Virus record (IMG/VR): IMGVR_UViG_3300024224_000007
Span: 1 to 45,445 of that record
From: a virus
Length of the DNA: 45,445 bases
Strand: one strand, 5' to 3'
Shown here: positions 4,604 through 29,879 of the stretch, in pieces
Layout of the letters: each line of letters starts with the position of its first letter
Position numbering within the stretch: the first letter of the stretch is position 1
Program-made: the position numbers and the translations under genes
Notes under the pieces: generated by a model
Told to the model about the DNA's origin: nothing
The model's input: the letters and a program-made list of their open reading frames with translations, nothing else
Database searches by the model: none

Positions 4604-5202
4604 GTTTTCTTGGTCCTACCTTCGGGTCGCTCGACAGTCGCAAAGGTGTCCAGCAGGGAATTACCTCGCAATCCGGCAATCTTGGCGCACAGGCGGGCAA
4701 GACGGCGGGGCAACGAAGTTCAGAGTTTGGCGCACTCATGCCGGGGTTCAGTTCCTTGCTCAATTCCGGCTACTCCGACGCGGAAAAGTCTTCCATCAAT
4801 CAAAGCACGCTAGGCGGAATCAACGAGGCTTACGGCGGAGCGACCGACGCGGCTTCGCGCAGAATGGCTAGAACGGGCAACTCAGCTGGGTTTAGTTCGT
4901 TTCTAGGAGCGGCAGCTCGTGGTAAGGGCCGGGACTTGGCCAGCCAGAACTTGCAGAATCAGAAGGATTTTGCCGATGAGTCCTTGCGCAGAAAGATGAT
5001 TGGCTTGCAAGGAATTGCAGGGCTTTATGGGATAGATAGTAGTTTTCTCAATAGCCTTAACAGTCAACAAAATCAATTGGTCGGGCAAGCAAACCAGTTG
5101 TACGGAACGGTCAAAGGGCATCCGGGCTTTGGCGATTCGTTTATGAGCAACTTCGGCGGCTCACTTGGCAGTAATCTCGGTTCGCTGCTCACAGGGCATT
5201 AG
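4600..5202 (+). CDS. Internal virion / ejection-type protein
   Basis: This 200-aa protein starts at ATG 4600, overlapping the upstream stop by 4 bases (ATGA). It is Gly/Ser/Ala/Gln rich and mostly helical, with a central SRRMARTGNSAGFSSFLGAAARGKGRDLASQ-like segment (broken by glycines) and a C-terminal run of Gly-Ser (residues about 180-200). Proteins of this composition located after the tail hub in podoviruses are commonly injected with the DNA (T7 gp14, P22 gp7 class). Sequence similarity to those is not evident by eye; the role is inferred from composition and place. Confidence 0.6.
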   Translation: MSFLGPTFGSLDSRKGVQQGITSQSGNLGAQAGKTAGQRSSEFGALMPGFSSLLNSGYSDAEKSSINQSTLGGINEAYGGATDAASRRMARTGNSAGFSSFLGAAARGKGRDLASQNLQNQKDFADESLRRKMIGLQGIAGLYGIDSSFLNSLNSQQNQLVGQANQLYGTVKGHPGFGDSFMSNFGGSLGSNLGSLLTGH

Positions 5203-5490: not shown

Positions 5491-6771
5491 ATGGCAACAA
5501 TTAGAAAACTCCTGAATCCGCAGACCTTCGCAGGGGCATACAGCCCGTGGACGAGTGGAAGTTCTAGCTACGCTGGTGACGAAAATCCAGCTCCTGACGA
5601 TGCCATGCAGCCAGCTCCAGCGAATGCTCGTAGCGGAGTTTCCTTGTCGCCTGCATTCAATCCGAATACCAGCGGCCAACCCGACGTGACGCGAGACATC
5701 TATCAGCCGCAACTTAGAGACATCAGTGCAAGGCTCAGCGAGGCCTACAATCCCCCGGAAGTTGGAGTTGGCGGAACGATTCGGCACGTTCTGGGCGCAA
5801 TCATGTCTCAGAGGAATCCCCAGCTTGGCAGCATCATCAGCGGATACTATCAGCGGCAGCGGCAGATTGCAGGACTCACAAAGCAATACGGGCTGACTGA
5901 AGACGCCATCAAGCAGGACCAAGCACAAAAACTGGCGGCTCTTAACGCCCAGAATATCGGCTCTGAGATTACACATCGCACGGCGCAGGAAGGCTATTGG
6001 GATAAGCTCGCCAATGCGAAAGAGAATCCTCCTGCCAAGACGCCGGATGAGCAAACATTTGAATCCCTGACGGCTGGCGGCATGAAGCCGCTCGATGCGC
6101 TGGAGAAAATAAAGAACACCAAAGAAACTGATACAAAGGGCGGCACTCTGACCGATTTGGATATTGGCGGACAGAACCACAAAGTACTGGTAGATACGAA
6201 GACAGGCGCAGTTATCAGAGATATGGGTAAGTCAAAGTTGCCTGTTCCTCCGACTGCATCAGGTGATAAAGCGTTTGAGAGTGAGAATGCCAAGCAGGTT
6301 ACGAAGGATTTGGTTACGGCTCGCGGTGCTGACTTCCGGTTGCGTTCTATGAACAGCTCCTACAAGGATGCAACGGAAAAGAACGACCAGCAGGCCATGC
6401 TGAATCTTTTGACGAACCATATCGGCATGACTCTAGGACTTCAGAAAGGCGCACGAATCACGAAAGATATTCTCCATGAAGCAACGGCTTCGGCTCCGTG
6501 GCTGCAAACCGTGGCTGCCAAGTTCGATAGCGATGGCTATTTGAGCGGCGTTGTTCTAACCAAACCTCAGATGGATTCCATGATGAAGCTAGCGCATGCG
6601 CAAAGGCATACGGCTTGGCAGCAAGCGCACGACTCAGCTTCACAAGCCGGATTGACTGATAAGGTACAGTTCCCCAAAGACTTCTCCCCCGAAGGAGACA
6701 CGCCAGCAAGCGGAACGGGCGGACTAAAGATTATCCGTGACGCCAACGGCAGAATTACAGGAGTGCAGTAG
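5491..6771 (+). CDS. Putative internal/ejection protein, 426 aa
   Basis: The start is ATG 5491, 6 bases after the preceding stop. Residues 1-70 are Pro/Ser/Gly rich and probably disordered. A helical region follows (about 75-180) with RHVLGAIMSQRNPQLGSIIS and many Gln/Ala/Lys. The C-terminal half (about 250-400) is predicted helical and includes an H-A-Q-R-H-T-A-W-Q-Q-A-H segment. It lies in a row with 4600-5202 and 6771-8078, the arrangement of podoviral DNA-ejection proteins. No lytic transglycosylase motif was found. Family not recognised. Confidence 0.6.
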   Translation: MATIRKLLNPQTFAGAYSPWTSGSSSYAGDENPAPDDAMQPAPANARSGVSLSPAFNPNTSGQPDVTRDIYQPQLRDISARLSEAYNPPEVGVGGTIRHVLGAIMSQRNPQLGSIISGYYQRQRQIAGLTKQYGLTEDAIKQDQAQKLAALNAQNIGSEITHRTAQEGYWDKLANAKENPPAKTPDEQTFESLTAGGMKPLDALEKIKNTKETDTKGGTLTDLDIGGQNHKVLVDTKTGAVIRDMGKSKLPVPPTASGDKAFESENAKQVTKDLVTARGADFRLRSMNSSYKDATEKNDQQAMLNLLTNHIGMTLGLQKGARITKDILHEATASAPWLQTVAAKFDSDGYLSGVVLTKPQMDSMMKLAHAQRHTAWQQAHDSASQAGLTDKVQFPKDFSPEGDTPASGTGGLKIIRDANGRITGVQ

Positions 6772-8078: not shown

Positions 8079-11000
8079 AACGATGGTTTCTAGCACTGGC
8101 GCTTCTTTTCCCTGCTCTGGCTTATGGGCAGGGAAGTAACTATCAGGCCATCATTCTTGGCTCGACAGGAAGGCCAGTTGGCGGAGCGCAAGTCACTGTC
8201 TGTACGGCTGGTTCTCCCGGCGTTCCTTGCTCGCCTACGGTGAATATCTTTCAGGACCAAGCCCTTACAATTGCCCAATCCAATCCCATCATCACGGATG
8301 CCTTCGGAAACTTCTCCTTTTGGGCCGCTCCTGGAACTTATGAATACACCGTCACGGGGTTAAACGTCGTTGCGCATGGGCCATTTACCGTCGTTCTGCC
8401 TTGCATCGTAGGGGCTTCGTGCGCATCTGCTGGAGGACTGCCGAATAGTTCCGTAACCTTTTCTACCACGCCGTCTTTTGCCGCAACCCAGAATGCCAGC
8501 TATTCCACGGTACTGACAGCCAACATCACGGCCATCACGATTACCGGGACTCCGGTAAACGGAAATCTCTTGCGGTTTTCCTTTGACCAGGACGCAACAG
8601 GCGGTCACACGGTAGTTTGGCCCGGTAACTTCATCTTTGCGGATGATTTCGCTTTCAGGATTCTGCCGCTAGCCAAGAACAAGATTACTTTTGTTTATAA
8701 CGGCACGAACTGGCATCAGCTGGACAACATACCGGACGGGGCACTCGACTATTACCCCGTAACGTTTTCAGCCACTCCTACACTTTCCAATTCGCGTTCC
8801 GCCGTTTTCGACATGACGCTCACTGGAAACGTGACTTCTTCCGTCTTTACGACTACCGGAAGAGCAGGCACGCAGTTCATTCTTAATGCCTGTCAGGATG
8901 GCGTTGGCGGAAGGACATTTGCCTTCCCTGGAAACGTCAGCAACCCGCAAGGCTTCACCTTCGATACGACAGCCTCGCACTGCAACAGAGTTTTGTATTC
9001 CTGGACAGGCGCTCTGTGGATAGGAATAGGCGGCGGAACGGGAGGCGGCGGAGGCGGTACACCAGCTAACCCTCTAAACTGCCTGCAAAAGAACGCTTCC
9101 GGCTCTTTCGGGGCATCGAACGTCTGCGAGAACGGGACTGCTCTTTCGATTGGCGACGATTCCATTCCCAAAGGGCCTAACCCTTATGTGGACCCACGGG
9201 CTTATGGTGTCAGGGCACTAGACTCCCGCTTTATTCCGGGCGTACCTGGAATTACCGGAACGATCAACAGCACGTCTACTTCTCTGACCGTCTCCACAAG
9301 CAACTGCCCTGCTCAGGCAAGCAGTCAGTGCTTTACGAATGGCGACGGCATCACAATCGTTGGGGGCGGTGCTCCTCAGTCCATGACTGCCCCAGTCCCA
9401 ACTGTCGTTCCCAGCCTAGCCGCTGGACCTACAGGCACAACGGTTGTGGTAACAGGGCCAACCGGAGCCACGACTTACAACTACAAGATTGTGGCCGTAG
9501 ACAAGGGCCGGGGCATGACAGTAGCGAGCGCCGCAACGACCATCACGAACGGCAAAGCTAATCTTGGTGCGCGGTCGGTTGGCATTACTTCCTGCGCCCG
9601 TTCCGGTCAGACTGTCACTTGCCTCACTTCAGGCGTGCACGAACTGATTGCCGGAGCCGCTGTCATCATCAATCAGGTCAGTGATGGAAGTTTCTCCGGC
9701 ACGTATATTCTGGCCACGGTTCCAGACAACACCCACTTCACTTATACGAGTGGATTTGACACGGCTTCAGGAGCAACGACTTCCGCAACAGGCGGCACGG
9801 TTCACTGGTTCAATGAAAATCTTGTTTCTTGGAGCCATGTCGCTGGAGCGCACCAATACATCATTTGCTCAGACCGTGGCGGGGCTGGATACGTCCCTAT
9901 CGGAATCTCCGCTCCCGACAACACAGCAGCCAGCATCACCGACATGGCCTTGGCATGGGATGACCTTGGCTCACCTTTGCGGGATAACTTCCTCGTTCCT
10001 TACTGGGCTGGCACTAATCCTTGCACAGCAGGCTCCGCACAGAATGATGAACTCGTCACAACGATTGTCAGTGGAGCACCGGGAACCAGCTTCACACTTG
10101 CTAATGCGGCTTCGACTTCCGTAACGAATCAAGTCGTGCTGTTCGACAACGTGCCGAATCTTTTGACGGCTTTGGCCGCATCCGCGAATGCTCCTTTGAA
10201 CATCCCGGTCTCTACTGTTTCCAACGGAAACATGGTCTTCAATTCCTACATGCAAATGCCTTCGCAGTACGACATCTGCCAATTGGGTACGGTGGTTCTG
10301 AACGACACCGTGCAATTAGCCTCTGGGGGGAAATGGTCTGGAGCATGTCCACCGGCTAATGGAAGTGTTCCTTCTTCTGCTTGGCAGGGTTACACAACCA
10401 TCTCGACAGGACCGGCCTATCCCGGAGCCTACCAAGCTAATGGCGCAATCAACATGGATTCCATTCAGTGGACTAACGCCACTGGGACGAACAACAAAGT
10501 CTACATGCTTATGGACCTTTCCGGGGTTCCCAGCGGCACGCTTGGAGGCATGAATTTTGTAATCGGCGGGAACATGGGGATTGGGCTAGTCTCTCGCGGC
10601 GCACCCGCAGGAGCCAGCGGAGCAACAAAAGTTCCCATGAAAGGGAACTGGCTGTTTTCTTCTCCAACGGTAAGCGTAGGCGATAGTACGACTCCAGCTT
10701 TTTATGCAAGCCCTGCCGGGTACCTCATGGAGAACATCTCTCTCGCCGGAAGAGGCCTGGTATTCAAGACTCCTTCTCAGCCGTTCGGGGATACAATCCC
10801 CATCAAAACGCTCTACATGAATGGTGGAATAACTCCGCTGATTACGATGGTAGGTGGTGGAGCAAATCAGTTTATCCATCTCGGCTATGCGGCCATAGAT
10901 ACGGTAGGTCTGCCGCTGTTCGCCAATCTAAACGCTGTTGGCTCAAAAATAACCGTAGAAGACTTGGCTTCAGGCCCCAGCAATGATGGTGTGAGCGTTC

Positions 11001-25121: not shown

Positions 25122-25125
<4 letters not shown>
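24994..25125 (-). CDS. Zinc-ribbon peptide, 43 aa
   Basis: ATG 25125 to TGA 24994 gives 43 aa with C-P-T-C (8-11) and C-I-S-C (25-28), a minimal zinc ribbon, followed by a basic tail (RPLAARRQQKEPGR). Exact 4-base overlaps with the genes on both sides strongly support it. Role unknown; possibly binds nucleic acid or a host protein. Confidence 0.7.
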
Positions 25126-25649
<524 letters not shown>

Positions 25650-26485: not shown

Positions 26486-26703
26486 TTCTTGCCCTCCCGT
26501 TTCGCCCATGCCATACGCTTTACGCGTTCAAGCCCTGATTCTGACCACCTTTTGATAATTGCTTGGTTGACCACATACCAGTCCACCCGTTCACTGGATT
26601 CCATCGCCATCGCGTAAGTCAGCGCCACGGACTTCTGCGTAAAGTGCTTGTCGGCTATCTCTTCCAGCAAGACGTTCTGGCAATCACAAAGCTCAACCCG
26701 CAT
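26482..26703 (-). CDS. Hypothetical protein, 73 aa
   Basis: ATG 26703 lies directly behind GGAGGGACG. The product begins MRVELCDCQNVLLEEIADKH, continues with helical MESSERVDWYVVNQAIIKRW and ends basic (RVKRMAWAKREGKK). A longer start is less likely since it lacks a site. It is the first of a three-gene chain with the Cys-rich and C2H2 genes. Confidence 0.6.
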   Translation of the reverse strand: MRVELCDCQNVLLEEIADKHFTQKSVALTYAMAMESSERVDWYVVNQAIIKRWSESGLERVKRMAWAKREGKK

Positions 26704-26826
26704 CGTCCCTCCTACCACTTTCCTGCTGCTCCCGCCAGACAAAAGGACGCCTTTCTTTCCCGGTCCCTCTTACGCCTTTGATTCTGCTTTTGCTGTTGGT
26801 TCTAAAACAACTACCAACTCAAATGT
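26704..26826. other. Short non-coding gap
   Basis: About 120 bp without a start codon that could open a credible minus-strand frame. The A/G-rich stretch on the minus strand ends in the ribosome site of 26703. No clear promoter: TTGAGT occurs but no matching -10 follows at 17 bp. Confidence 0.4.
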
Positions 26827-27159
26827 CTAGCAGTAATCAGCAGCGAGGTCTAGCAAGGCAACCTCGAAAGTTCTGTGTAACTCTGGCCGCCGCACGCGTT
26901 TCTCTCGCCCGCTTGCATGCGTCCGTGGTGGTATGCAAGTCGCCGGAAGAGATTTGAAACCAACTTTGTGGTAACGCTGTTTTAAGGCGAGCTGTAGCGG
27001 GTTCATGCTCGGCGCGATGACATTTGTGGAGAGACCGGTTTGAAGGCGAGACCACCAGAGCCCAAATCTCCACTCCCGATGTCCAATCGCAGCATACATA
27101 GGTAGAACTGTCCCACGCCAGATGTGGGCCGAAAGGTCGCGGATTTTTGGGAAGCTCAT
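26827..27159 (-). CDS. Hypothetical protein behind a pseudoknot leader, 110 aa
   Basis: ATG 27159 was chosen because the interleaved inverted repeats end on its first base and a promoter lies about 100 bases upstream. The product has GTVLPMYAAIGHREWRFGLW near the N-terminus, then a basic middle and C-terminal ALLDLAADYC. No family is recognised. A competing frame (27208-26837, GTG start, 123 aa) lies in another phase and would run through the pseudoknot. I prefer the ATG frame, with moderate certainty. Confidence 0.5.
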   Translation of the reverse strand: MSFPKIRDLSAHIWRGTVLPMYAAIGHREWRFGLWWSRLQTGLSTNVIAPSMNPLQLALKQRYHKVGFKSLPATCIPPRTHASGREKRVRRPELHRTFEVALLDLAADYC

Positions 27160-27238
27160 TCGCCGTGAGTCTTTCTCGGAATAAGTCGCTAGGCTTGAAA
27201 CGGCTCACGGCGAAGTGGGGTACGCCTCAAGCCTAGCG
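27159..27238 (-). promoter_or_regulatory. Interleaved inverted repeats: predicted H-type pseudoknot leader
   Basis: Four perfect arms in the order A-B-A'-B' on the plus strand: A TTCGCCGTGAG 27159-27169, B CGCTAGGCTTGA 27187-27198, A' CTCACGGCGAA 27204-27214, B' TCAAGCCTAGCG 27227-27238. On minus-strand RNA this is a two-stem pseudoknot (12 bp then 11 bp; loops 12, 5 and 17 nt) whose last base is the A of ATG 27159. Predicted 5' end is about 27253. It may gate translation of that gene. As DNA it could instead be overlapping protein-binding dyads. Confidence 0.7.
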
Positions 27239-27259
27239 GGAACTTGTTCCGTAGCTCGG

Positions 27260-27288
27260 AGCATAAAAAATTCTGCGCCGTGCGTCAA
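27260..27288 (-). promoter_or_regulatory. Leftward promoter with a structured leader
   Basis: TTGACG (27288-27283), 17 bp, TATGCT (27265-27260) on the minus strand (five and four matches). The predicted start near 27253 gives a leader of about 94 nt before ATG 27159, unlike the leaderless geometry of other promoters here. Confidence 0.5.
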
Positions 27289-27289
27289 G

Positions 27290-27730
27290 TTAAAACTTTA
27301 TGATTTCCTGTGTATCGGGTATTTTCTTGAAAATCTGCAAGCAACGAACCTGCTTAAGAGGACCCATGGTTATAGCTACCATCGCTTCGCGTTCAGCTCG
27401 TTCAAGCCAAGCTCTAGGCCAAATGAAAGTATGAAGTATCGCCAATCTACGGCAAACACGCCATATTTCTTGACCTTCTTTCTTATAGAGCTTGTCATAA
27501 GGCGGATCCCAATATCCGAAGCTATGGAAATCATTAGCTAACGGCAATTCTTTCCATTCAAAACCGTTCGTTTTATCGTAAAATGACAAATTATCTGGAA
27601 CTTGGTCTTGGCGTCCAAAACAAGCATCTGGTAAACCGAAATTCTTTTCAATGCGTTGGAACACCTGACCGGATCCCCAATGTGAAGTTAACGGGCGACG
27701 GCAAGCCCAGAAATCAAACTTAACTTTCAA
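27290..27730 (-). CDS. DPPY-motif methyltransferase-like protein, 146 aa
   Basis: TTG 27730 (TTGA overlap; GGAG upstream) is the start. Residues 74-78 read W-D-P-P-Y, the catalytic motif of N6-adenine/N4-cytosine DNA methyltransferases, followed by a segment A-I-L-H-T-F-I-W-P that fits the next strands. The FxGxG-type SAM-binding motif is not evident, and at 146 aa it is about half the usual length. It could be a minimal adenine-methylase-like protein, a SAM-pocket-lacking derivative or a repurposed fold. The stop comes just before the promoter at 27260-27288. Confidence 0.6.
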   Translation of the reverse strand: MKVKFDFWACRRPLTSHWGSGQVFQRIEKNFGLPDACFGRQDQVPDNLSFYDKTNGFEWKELPLANDFHSFGYWDPPYDKLYKKEGQEIWRVCRRLAILHTFIWPRAWLERAEREAMVAITMGPLKQVRCLQIFKKIPDTQEIIKF

Positions 27731-27900
27731 TTTTCTCCTGCTGCTGCGCTCTGCACGGCGTCGTGATTGTTACGCTTGACCTGCTGATAGGCCATGAAAA
27801 GCACGAACTGGAGAGGGCTGTCCAGCGGCGTTTCAGCGGAAGTTTCGTAGGAGCCGCGCAGCATGCCATCGGCTGCAAGTTGGCGGATGGATTCGCTCAT
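27727..27900 (-). CDS. Small hypothetical protein, 57 aa
   Basis: ATG 27900 overlaps the upstream stop by 4 bases; its own stop overlaps the methyltransferase-like start by 4 bases. The product is a soluble helical protein (SIRQLAADGMLRGSYETS; FVLFMAYQQVKRNN). No motif is recognised; the coupling on both sides supports it as real. Confidence 0.65.
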   Translation of the reverse strand: MSESIRQLAADGMLRGSYETSAETPLDSPLQFVLFMAYQQVKRNNHDAVQSAAAGEN

Positions 27901-28407: not shown

Positions 28408-28750
28408 CTTCTGCGTAATCTTTGGTATCCGTCAGCGCCATGACGAAGTTACGTACTTCCTCGAAGGGGTGAAGCCGCAAAGCCATGATGATCGCGTCAG
28501 TGCCCAAAACCGGGTTTCCACCCGCTGCTAGCATGTACTTCTCTTTCTCTTTGTGGAACTCCGCAAAGCTATCCGGGTCTACGGCGTCCCAAGCGATGCG
28601 CGTCTTGCGCATGCCTTTCTCATCCGGCGCATTGGCAATTTTCTTTTTCTGCTCGTCTTCGATGCAGACCGGATGATTAGCGTGGAGCTGGCCCTTGCCT
28701 TTGGCTATCTCGGCCTCGGCCCATTCCTTGACTTGGAAAATCGTCGGCAT
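28385..28750 (-). CDS. Hypothetical protein downstream of RecT, 121 aa
   Basis: ATG 28750 shares its base with the RecT-like stop (TGATG). The product is acidic-to-neutral and helical, with VCIEDEQKKKIANAPDEKGM, and ends in an acidic tail. No Cys motif beyond one Cys. Its tight coupling to RecT suggests a recombination accessory; no family recognised. Confidence 0.6.
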   Translation of the reverse strand: MPTIFQVKEWAEAEIAKGKGQLHANHPVCIEDEQKKKIANAPDEKGMRKTRIAWDAVDPDSFAEFHKEKEKYMLAAGGNPVLGTDAIIMALRLHPFEEVRNFVMALTDTKDYAEDETLSDA

Positions 28751-29691
28751 CAGTTCGCATCTTTCACGGACGGCCCTTCGGGACGTTTCGGCCAGACTAT
28801 CTTCGGCTCTTTTACTGGCTCAATCGGTTTCAAGGAACCCTTCAGGAGTACAGATTCCGGCGATTCCCCAGCCTCTAGGAGCGATAATTGCTCCTCGCTT
28901 GGCAGTTTACCCTTCGTCAGCGTCTTGAACGCTGTAATGCGCTCATCTATTGCAGATACCCTTGCCTCAGCAAGTTTCGCGTTCTCGCTCGGCTCGTAAG
29001 CCTCAACCATGAACTCTTCTTGGATGTAGAGACCGTCCGTAGCGGGGTAGGCCGCCCTCACGCCTTGTGCTTTGGCGCATTTACCGAGCATGAGACGCGG
29101 CATCTGGCGGACGAGCGGCGAGGAATCTACATTCGGGTAAATCTCTTCCCAGTAGACTTCGCCAATCGTTGGAATGGGGTCACCACGCTTATAGACTTCG
29201 ACTCGCGCCCATTCAGGAGCCTTGAACGTTCCAGATGGTTTGAATGTGCGCGACGATTCGTCCCACTTCGACCATTCGCGGTCAATCATCGGGCCATATT
29301 CCGGTCTGCCGATGGAGCCAAATTGTTTTTTGTGGTCGCGTGCGGCGATATGCAGAAGTCCATTGATGCCCACAATCGGTATCCAGCGATAACCCGTGAT
29401 TTTCTCTTTCTTCTCGCGGTCGTATCGGTCGAGATTCTTGTCTCTGCGCTTCACGAACCAGATTTGCCCACGGAACGGGTCGAGCTTGTAGCGTCTAGCG
29501 ACACCCAAGCAGAATCGCAATTCATCATCCGATGCGCCTTTAGCGATATGGTTGCGAACAAGCTCCACTTCCTCAGTGGAAAGCTCCCACGGCTTCTTGG
29601 TCGGCGCAGGCACAACGATTGCGGCAGGCGGTTTCGGCTTGCGTTGCTTTTTGGGCTGCTCTGGCGTTGCTGCTGGCTGGTCGCTGCTCAT
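28750..29691 (-). CDS. recT: RecT/Bet-family single-strand annealing protein
   Basis: ATG 29691 is fixed by a 4-base overlap with the upstream stop; the product is 313 aa. After a Pro/Lys/Gln-rich disordered N-terminus (about 1-35) comes the annealing fold: FCLGVARRYKLDPFRGQIWF (59-78), then Y-R-W-I-P-I-V-G-I-N-G-L-L-H-I-A (105-120), G-x-P-E-Y-G-P, and M-P-R-L-M-L-G-K-C-A-K-A-Q-G-V-R-A-A-Y-P (about 200-219). These are the conserved blocks of lambda Bet/RecT proteins. It anneals complementary strands, usually with an exonuclease partner. The zinc-finger nuclease at 30750 is the only candidate partner in this arm. Confidence 0.85.
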   Translation of the reverse strand: MSSDQPAATPEQPKKQRKPKPPAAIVVPAPTKKPWELSTEEVELVRNHIAKGASDDELRFCLGVARRYKLDPFRGQIWFVKRRDKNLDRYDREKKEKITGYRWIPIVGINGLLHIAARDHKKQFGSIGRPEYGPMIDREWSKWDESSRTFKPSGTFKAPEWARVEVYKRGDPIPTIGEVYWEEIYPNVDSSPLVRQMPRLMLGKCAKAQGVRAAYPATDGLYIQEEFMVEAYEPSENAKLAEARVSAIDERITAFKTLTKGKLPSEEQLSLLEAGESPESVLLKGSLKPIEPVKEPKIVWPKRPEGPSVKDAN

Positions 29692-29879
29692 GTCGTTGCT
29701 CTCCTGAGTTGTTTCTTGCCGCATTTGCTGCACTCGCGCTCTTGCCGGATGAAATAGTTTGAGATGAACTTTTCCGACTCGTTCAGCTTCTCGCCAGTTA
29801 GATGATTGTATTCGACGCGCAGAAAACCTTCCCCTGTCTGCTTCCATTTATCCCAGCGATGCCAGCAGAAACGGCTCAT
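29688..29879 (-). CDS. Small hypothetical protein with Cys pair, 63 aa
   Basis: ATG 29879 overlaps the upstream stop by 4 bases, and the stop overlaps the RecT start by 4 bases. It begins MSRFCWHRWDKWKQTGEGF and ends E-C-S-K-C-G-K-K-Q-L-R; the C, H and CxxC may form a zinc site. Function unknown; possibly a partner of RecT by position. Confidence 0.65.
   Translation of the reverse strand: MSRFCWHRWDKWKQTGEGFLRVEYNHLTGEKLNESEKFISNYFIRQERECSKCGKKQLRRATT

Follow-up and report, generated by a model that had tools for sequence, protein, structure and literature searches.

The window considered here is the whole 45,445-bp virus record, and the question it raises concerns a short part of the minus strand in which two pairs of inverted repeats are interleaved directly in front of an ATG: is this arrangement due to chance, is it a DNA site, or is it the fold of an mRNA leader and, if so, what would that fold control? 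Direct reading of the minus strand from 27288 to 27157 gives a promoter, a leader of ∼90 nt and then the ATG. The features are:

27283-27288, minus strand: -35 element TTGACG, common to a second phage, L007, in the alignment described below
27260-27265, minus strand: -10 element TATGCT, with a spacer of 17
27252, minus strand: putative transcription start, an A 8 nt past the -10 element, predicted from the sequence
27251-27247 with 27181-27177, minus strand: outer stem 1 helix CGGAA/TTCCG (5 bp) of the minimum-energy fold
27245-27242 with 27186-27183, minus strand: outer stem 1 helix AAGT/ACTT (4 bp) of the minimum-energy fold
27238-27227, minus strand: arm A of stem 1, CGCTAGGCTTGA, 12 nt, read directly
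27214-27204, minus strand: arm B of stem 2, TTCGCCGTGAG, 11 nt, within the 20-nt apical loop of stem 1
27198-27187, minus strand: arm A' of stem 1, TCAAGCCTAGCG, read directly
27170-27176, minus strand: purine tract AGAAAGA, directly 5' of B', a weak Shine-Dalgarno candidate
27169-27159, minus strand: arm B' of stem 2, CTCACGGCGAA, its last base being the A of ATG 27159-27157
26827-27159, minus strand: ORF110, an orphan that starts on the structure

The pairings A/A' (12 bp) and B/B' (11 bp) are both perfect, occur in the order A-B-A'-B' and span 80 nt. If G-T pairs are allowed, the pairing of arm A continues to 27223, which gives stem 1 a core of 16 bp. This is the only site in the whole window where interleaved arms are both at least 9 bp long. 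None of 200 Markov genomes of the same composition contained a case with both arms of at least 11 bp, and one of 200 did at 10 bp. The perfect interleaved repeats whose last base is the A of ATG 27159 and the promoter at 27260-27288 (TTGACG-17-TATGCT, a 9/12 match) had both been pointed out in an earlier note on this DNA, and both were borne out on re-reading.

The nested fold predicted for 27254-27155 has an energy of -40.8 kcal/mol, compared with -24.3 ± 3.3 in shuffled sequences (z -4.9). A sliding scan confines this folding excess (z about -5) to the leader, with values of ∼0 across the following 400 nt, and the excess ends at the start codon both in the window phage and in L007. A long structured non-coding RNA is disfavoured, because the folding excess stops at the AUG. 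The leader is also the only one with a minimum free energy near -42 among the promoter-like sites in the window.

Fully zipped, stem 1 has 25 bp and leaves 7 nt to reach B'. This is not enough to bridge 25 bp, and stem 2 should therefore form only in competition with the lower part of stem 1. The model energies for the window are -42.4 for the nested fold against -26.8 for the core plus -19.1 for stem 2, before any loop cost. Those for L007 are -40.2 against -22.4 and -14.7, and there the nested fold is favoured. As modelled, the energies do not clearly favour the pseudoknot over the nested fold.

L007 was reached via a conserved small gene at 27727-27900 (75% identity) and not via the leader. 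This gene encodes 57 aa, and the block QLAADGMLRGSY within it is nearly invariant across all four of the related contigs. The L007 leader lies one gene beyond the shared neighbour, after a TTGACG and a -10 element, and has the arms A GTTGGAAGGGT, B TTTGCCGGAA, A' ACTCTTCCAAC and B' TTCCGGCAAA. Here too B' finishes on the A of an ATG at the same offset, with AAAAAGGGA in the position occupied by the purine tract AGAAAGA in the window. Dimensions in the window and L007, respectively, are 16 and 16 bp for the stem 1 core, 11 and 10 bp for stem 2, and 8 and 9, 1 and 5, and 17 and 15 nt for loops L1, L2 and L3. The L007 hairpin folds at z -3.4. Aligned over promoter and leader, the two phages score 81, compared with 48.8 ± 7.9 in mononucleotide shuffles; common to both are the blocks TTGACG..CGG..AGAATTTT, ACAAG and CGGCRAATG, as well as a GAATTTT run in the promoter spacer.

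Under a structure-guided comparison of these, the only two members, all 11 compared pairs of stem 1 and 3 of the 10 in stem 2 are changed on both sides, and none is broken in either stem. Since the structure itself determined the register, this tally counts pairs kept rather than independent events. Compensatory changes in a related phage, which the earlier note had proposed to look for, are thus present, and together with the shared anatomy they support its suggestion of a structured RNA, in the form of a leader with pseudoknot potential. That L007 has the same fold with almost wholly different letters points to a functional RNA switch preceding an early gene.

The same comparison bears on whether the repeats act instead as DNA, either as repressor operators or as a recombination site. 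Their arms match perfectly at the DNA level, the leader is located at a mosaic junction (see below), and the promoter spacer carries, at 27276-27286, GACGCACGGCG, a 10/11 copy of the B' core GACTCACGGCG. A binding site should keep its letters, whereas in L007 the letters differ and the pairing is preserved, and outside the leader B' and A recur in the window no more often, or hardly more often, than expected by chance. A role as a DNA site is therefore very unlikely.

The frequency of such arrangements was assessed with a control pattern made up of the promoter letters and GGCRAATG only, blind to the stems. Over IMG/VR it found 21 loci, and only that of L007 (as L062) had pairing; the pairing scores were 25 for the window and 20 for L007, and the remaining IMG/VR loci had none or at most 13. 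A slightly tighter promoter plus CGGCRAATG pattern, applied to 84,980 bacterial and archaeal genomes, gave 75 loci, none with pairing (best chance score 17), and hence no prophage copy was found. Across viral and bacterial contigs, none of ∼94 unrelated pattern matches had comparable pairing, and ∼575 kb of loci held no further match as good as L007. A background of 2.18 Mb of unrelated strand sequence contained 12 interleaved hits of at least 20 pairs, one of which ends on an ATG, and this background count corresponds to a chance of ∼0.00015 per 330-nt interval, before a promoter is required. That sole background hit on an ATG has 13+10 interleaved pairs at 5710-5802 (plus strand) of L133, a betaproteobacterial MAG.

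Other relatives differ at this locus. Between about 27100 and 26000 the sequence of L002 matches the window at 98-99% identity, but its promoter, leader and upstream gene are swapped relative to the window. Its upstream gene encodes an N6/N4 methylase (PF01555), its promoter is TTGACT-17-TAAATT, and its leader is unrelated in sequence yet more stably folded than shuffled controls (z -3.2 and -3.8). Thus window 27100-27730 and L002 4177-5030 carry different methylase-like genes, promoters and leaders between the same neighbours, and an abrupt mosaic junction a short way into ORF110 joins them to the 98-99% identical downstream DNA. A possible short pseudoknot in L002, beside GGAGGG, would consist of 12 bp (2 G-T) and 7 bp with L1 and L2 of 0; its score of 17 is expected in ∼1 in 70 leaders of that size, judged from the 2.18 Mb background, and this fold is only suggestive. 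The folded leader of L002 also has a long-range 9-bp repeat, GCGAGCTTC/GAAGCTCGC, at 4861-5050.

No such leader was seen in the relatives of the RecT gene (L014-L016, L020 and L021) or in those of the upstream gene (L003 and L004), and the sequence of L008 stops before the leader region and is uninformative there. L014 has a long nested hairpin, not interleaved, at 8840-8910, in a similar position after another methylase-like gene (arms GAGGCTT..GGAAACC..GGTTTCC..AAGCCTC). The earlier note had held that related phages in which the pairing is lost would speak against the fold; the outcome is mixed, since L007 keeps the pairing and L002 has a different structured leader.

This pattern of inheritance also bears on the possibility that the ORF110 product binds its own leader, as gp32 does. 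Such a product would be small and basic, and there is a phage precedent in T4 gene 32 (PMC3014915). However, the window and L007 share the leader and not the ORF, while the window and L002 share the ORF and not the leader. ORF110 has no known domain, and its AlphaFold model is uninformative (pLDDT 49), as is that of ORF75 from L007 (pLDDT 58). Because leader and ORF are inherited separately, autoregulation by ORF110, which the earlier note had offered as one function, is hardly to be expected.

The nature of ORF110 itself is doubtful. Its sole relative is an ORF of L002 in IMG/VR (86% identical over the best segment), and none was found in INPHARED, Pfam, PHROGs or bacterial genomes, nor a match in PADLOC. 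Its codon usage is unlike that of this phage's genes: it scores -0.10 bits per codon, against a range of -0.08 to 0.33 for the training genes. Coding scores close to or below zero are, however, also seen for some of the other small genes in the window. The ORFs that follow the leader in the window and L007 have neither a coding score nor a strong Shine-Dalgarno sequence. ATG 27159 is no more than a candidate start codon, because the ORF is not coding-like, the Shine-Dalgarno candidate is weak and the only relatives are in L002. On the same strand, 26837-27208 holds two long overlapping ORFs (110 and 123 aa) in different frames, neither of which scores as coding. Three substitutions relative to L002 in the near-identical part are, by eye, non-synonymous in both frames. 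A weak hit of L007 ORF75 to L027 lies by eye in a different, GcrA-like frame and was taken as chance.

The gene 5' of the promoter (27290-27730) has a DPPY motif, by eye, but no Pfam match, and a RecT-family gene lies upstream at 28750-29847. Downstream of the leader is a run of small minus-strand ORFs, and no terminator was detected that would separate the leader from the next genes. ORF 25122-25649 includes a long GSGSGYGYG repeat tract, partly common to L002. INPHARED gave no useful match in a DNA search or in protein searches with ORF110, the upstream gene and the L007 ORF, and no tRNA or tmRNA genes were found.

If ATG 27159 is incidental, the structure might mainly guard the 5' end of an operon mRNA or block 5'-end-dependent decay, the first gene then being that at 26742. 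Stem 1 starts within 1-2 nt of the predicted 5' end, and all three phages with sequence at this locus (window, L007 and L002) have a structured leader, though the sequences differ. The ORFs after the leader that are not coding-like and the missing terminator would fit as well, and a guanidine riboswitch pseudoknot is reported, in work cited in PMC9373788, to act as a road-block to RNase E. A hairpin would suffice for such protection, which needs no stem 2 ending on the same base of an ATG in two diverged phages, and this role is considered unlikely. The orphan ORFs without coding signal would also suit a small non-coding RNA with a trans-acting pseudoknot and with AAUG as part of the motif, and CGGCRAAUG is among the best-conserved blocks. 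Against this, no terminator follows the structure, the next 400 nt have no folding excess and no Rfam match was obtained, which makes a trans-acting RNA improbable.

The preferred reading, to which a probability of about one in two is given, is a 5'-leader pseudoknot whose stem 2 hides the start site of a minus-strand phage mRNA. In a transcript from the promoter at 27288-27260, stem 1 would form a long hairpin starting almost at the 5' end, and arm B in its 20-nt apical loop would pair with B' just downstream to form stem 2 and an H-type pseudoknot. As B' spans from the purine tract to the AUG, including its A, stem 2, once formed, should block access of the ribosome to the start by occupying the landing site of the 30S subunit. 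Opening of stem 2, or refolding to a zipped stem 1 that strains stem 2, would expose the start. The two states of the window leader are similar in energy, which would fit a switch that needs something to tip the balance. We infer the transcription start, the formation of stem 2 in the cell, the use of the AUG and the direction of control from the sequence; the translational switch suggested in the earlier note thus agrees with the position of B' and is otherwise inferential. More tentatively, the leaders could represent an undescribed leader-pseudoknot family of a little-known soil phage group, in which stem 2 ends on the start codon, the helices are almost completely rewritten with pairing and dimensions kept, and the promoter-leader module is independent of the gene. 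If true, such a leader would amount to a modular element of RNA control, open to direct testing by reporter fusion and paired mutations.

Several known systems are comparable. The gene 32 leaders of T4, T2 and RB69 contain an H-type pseudoknot that exerts translational control, with related structures in T4 and RB69; it measures ∼28 nt, is located about 40-67 nt before the AUG and serves to nucleate gp32 binding to a start region that is A+U-rich and unstructured (PMC535899, PMC3014915). The leader described here resembles it as a phage mRNA leader with, at the level of sequence, an A-B-A'-B' arrangement in the window and L007. In contrast, the start codon here is overlapped by stem 2, stem 1 is much longer, B' runs up to the A of the ATG with no A+U-rich spacer, and no recognisable single-strand binding protein follows, ORF110 being without a Pfam, PHROG or PADLOC match.

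The SAM-II riboswitch is a compact 5'-leader pseudoknot, formation of which hides the ribosome binding site (PMC9373788). Unlike SAM-II, the present leader has no Rfam match: the whole window gave none at the gathering threshold, and a relaxed search of 26700-27320 and L007 gave only sub-threshold chance hits (E up to 10). In tisB, a pseudoknot at the 5' end influences translation start, activating it from a distance of ∼100 nt (PMC7708055). A comparable standby role, in which the pseudoknot aids binding of 30S or protein S1 and raises translation, would agree with a pseudoknot close to the mRNA 5' end together with an occluded start, a combination put forward for tisB (PMC7708055), but the tisB site is ∼100 nt upstream of the start whereas stem 2 here overlaps the AUG, and such a role is quite improbable.

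PeSL cassettes of T4-like phages, cited in PMC4503421, combine a promoter and a stem-loop and are tied to gene shuffling; the likeness is that promoter and leader here are also at a mosaic junction. The cassettes are titled promoter-terminator composites, whereas this leader has no U-tract terminator and has an extra interleaved stem. RNAs of type III toxin-antitoxin systems (ToxIN) are recognised by tandem short pseudoknot repeats, a terminator and a ToxN-like endoribonuclease; this assignment was rejected, as the structure is single copy and without a terminator, and the ORF has no PADLOC or Pfam match.

The position of B' would place the leader among those that sequester the start codon. 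It is likely, as far as sequence comparison goes, that it works like a translational pseudoknot and is not a member of a named family, because the layouts differ, there is no Rfam match, and both the gene and the A+U-rich spacer of gene 32 are missing. Leader pseudoknots that control translation are already known as a functional class from gene 32, SAM-II and tisB; what would matter here is a pseudoknot that covers the start codon, is kept by compensated change and is inherited apart from the gene that follows it.
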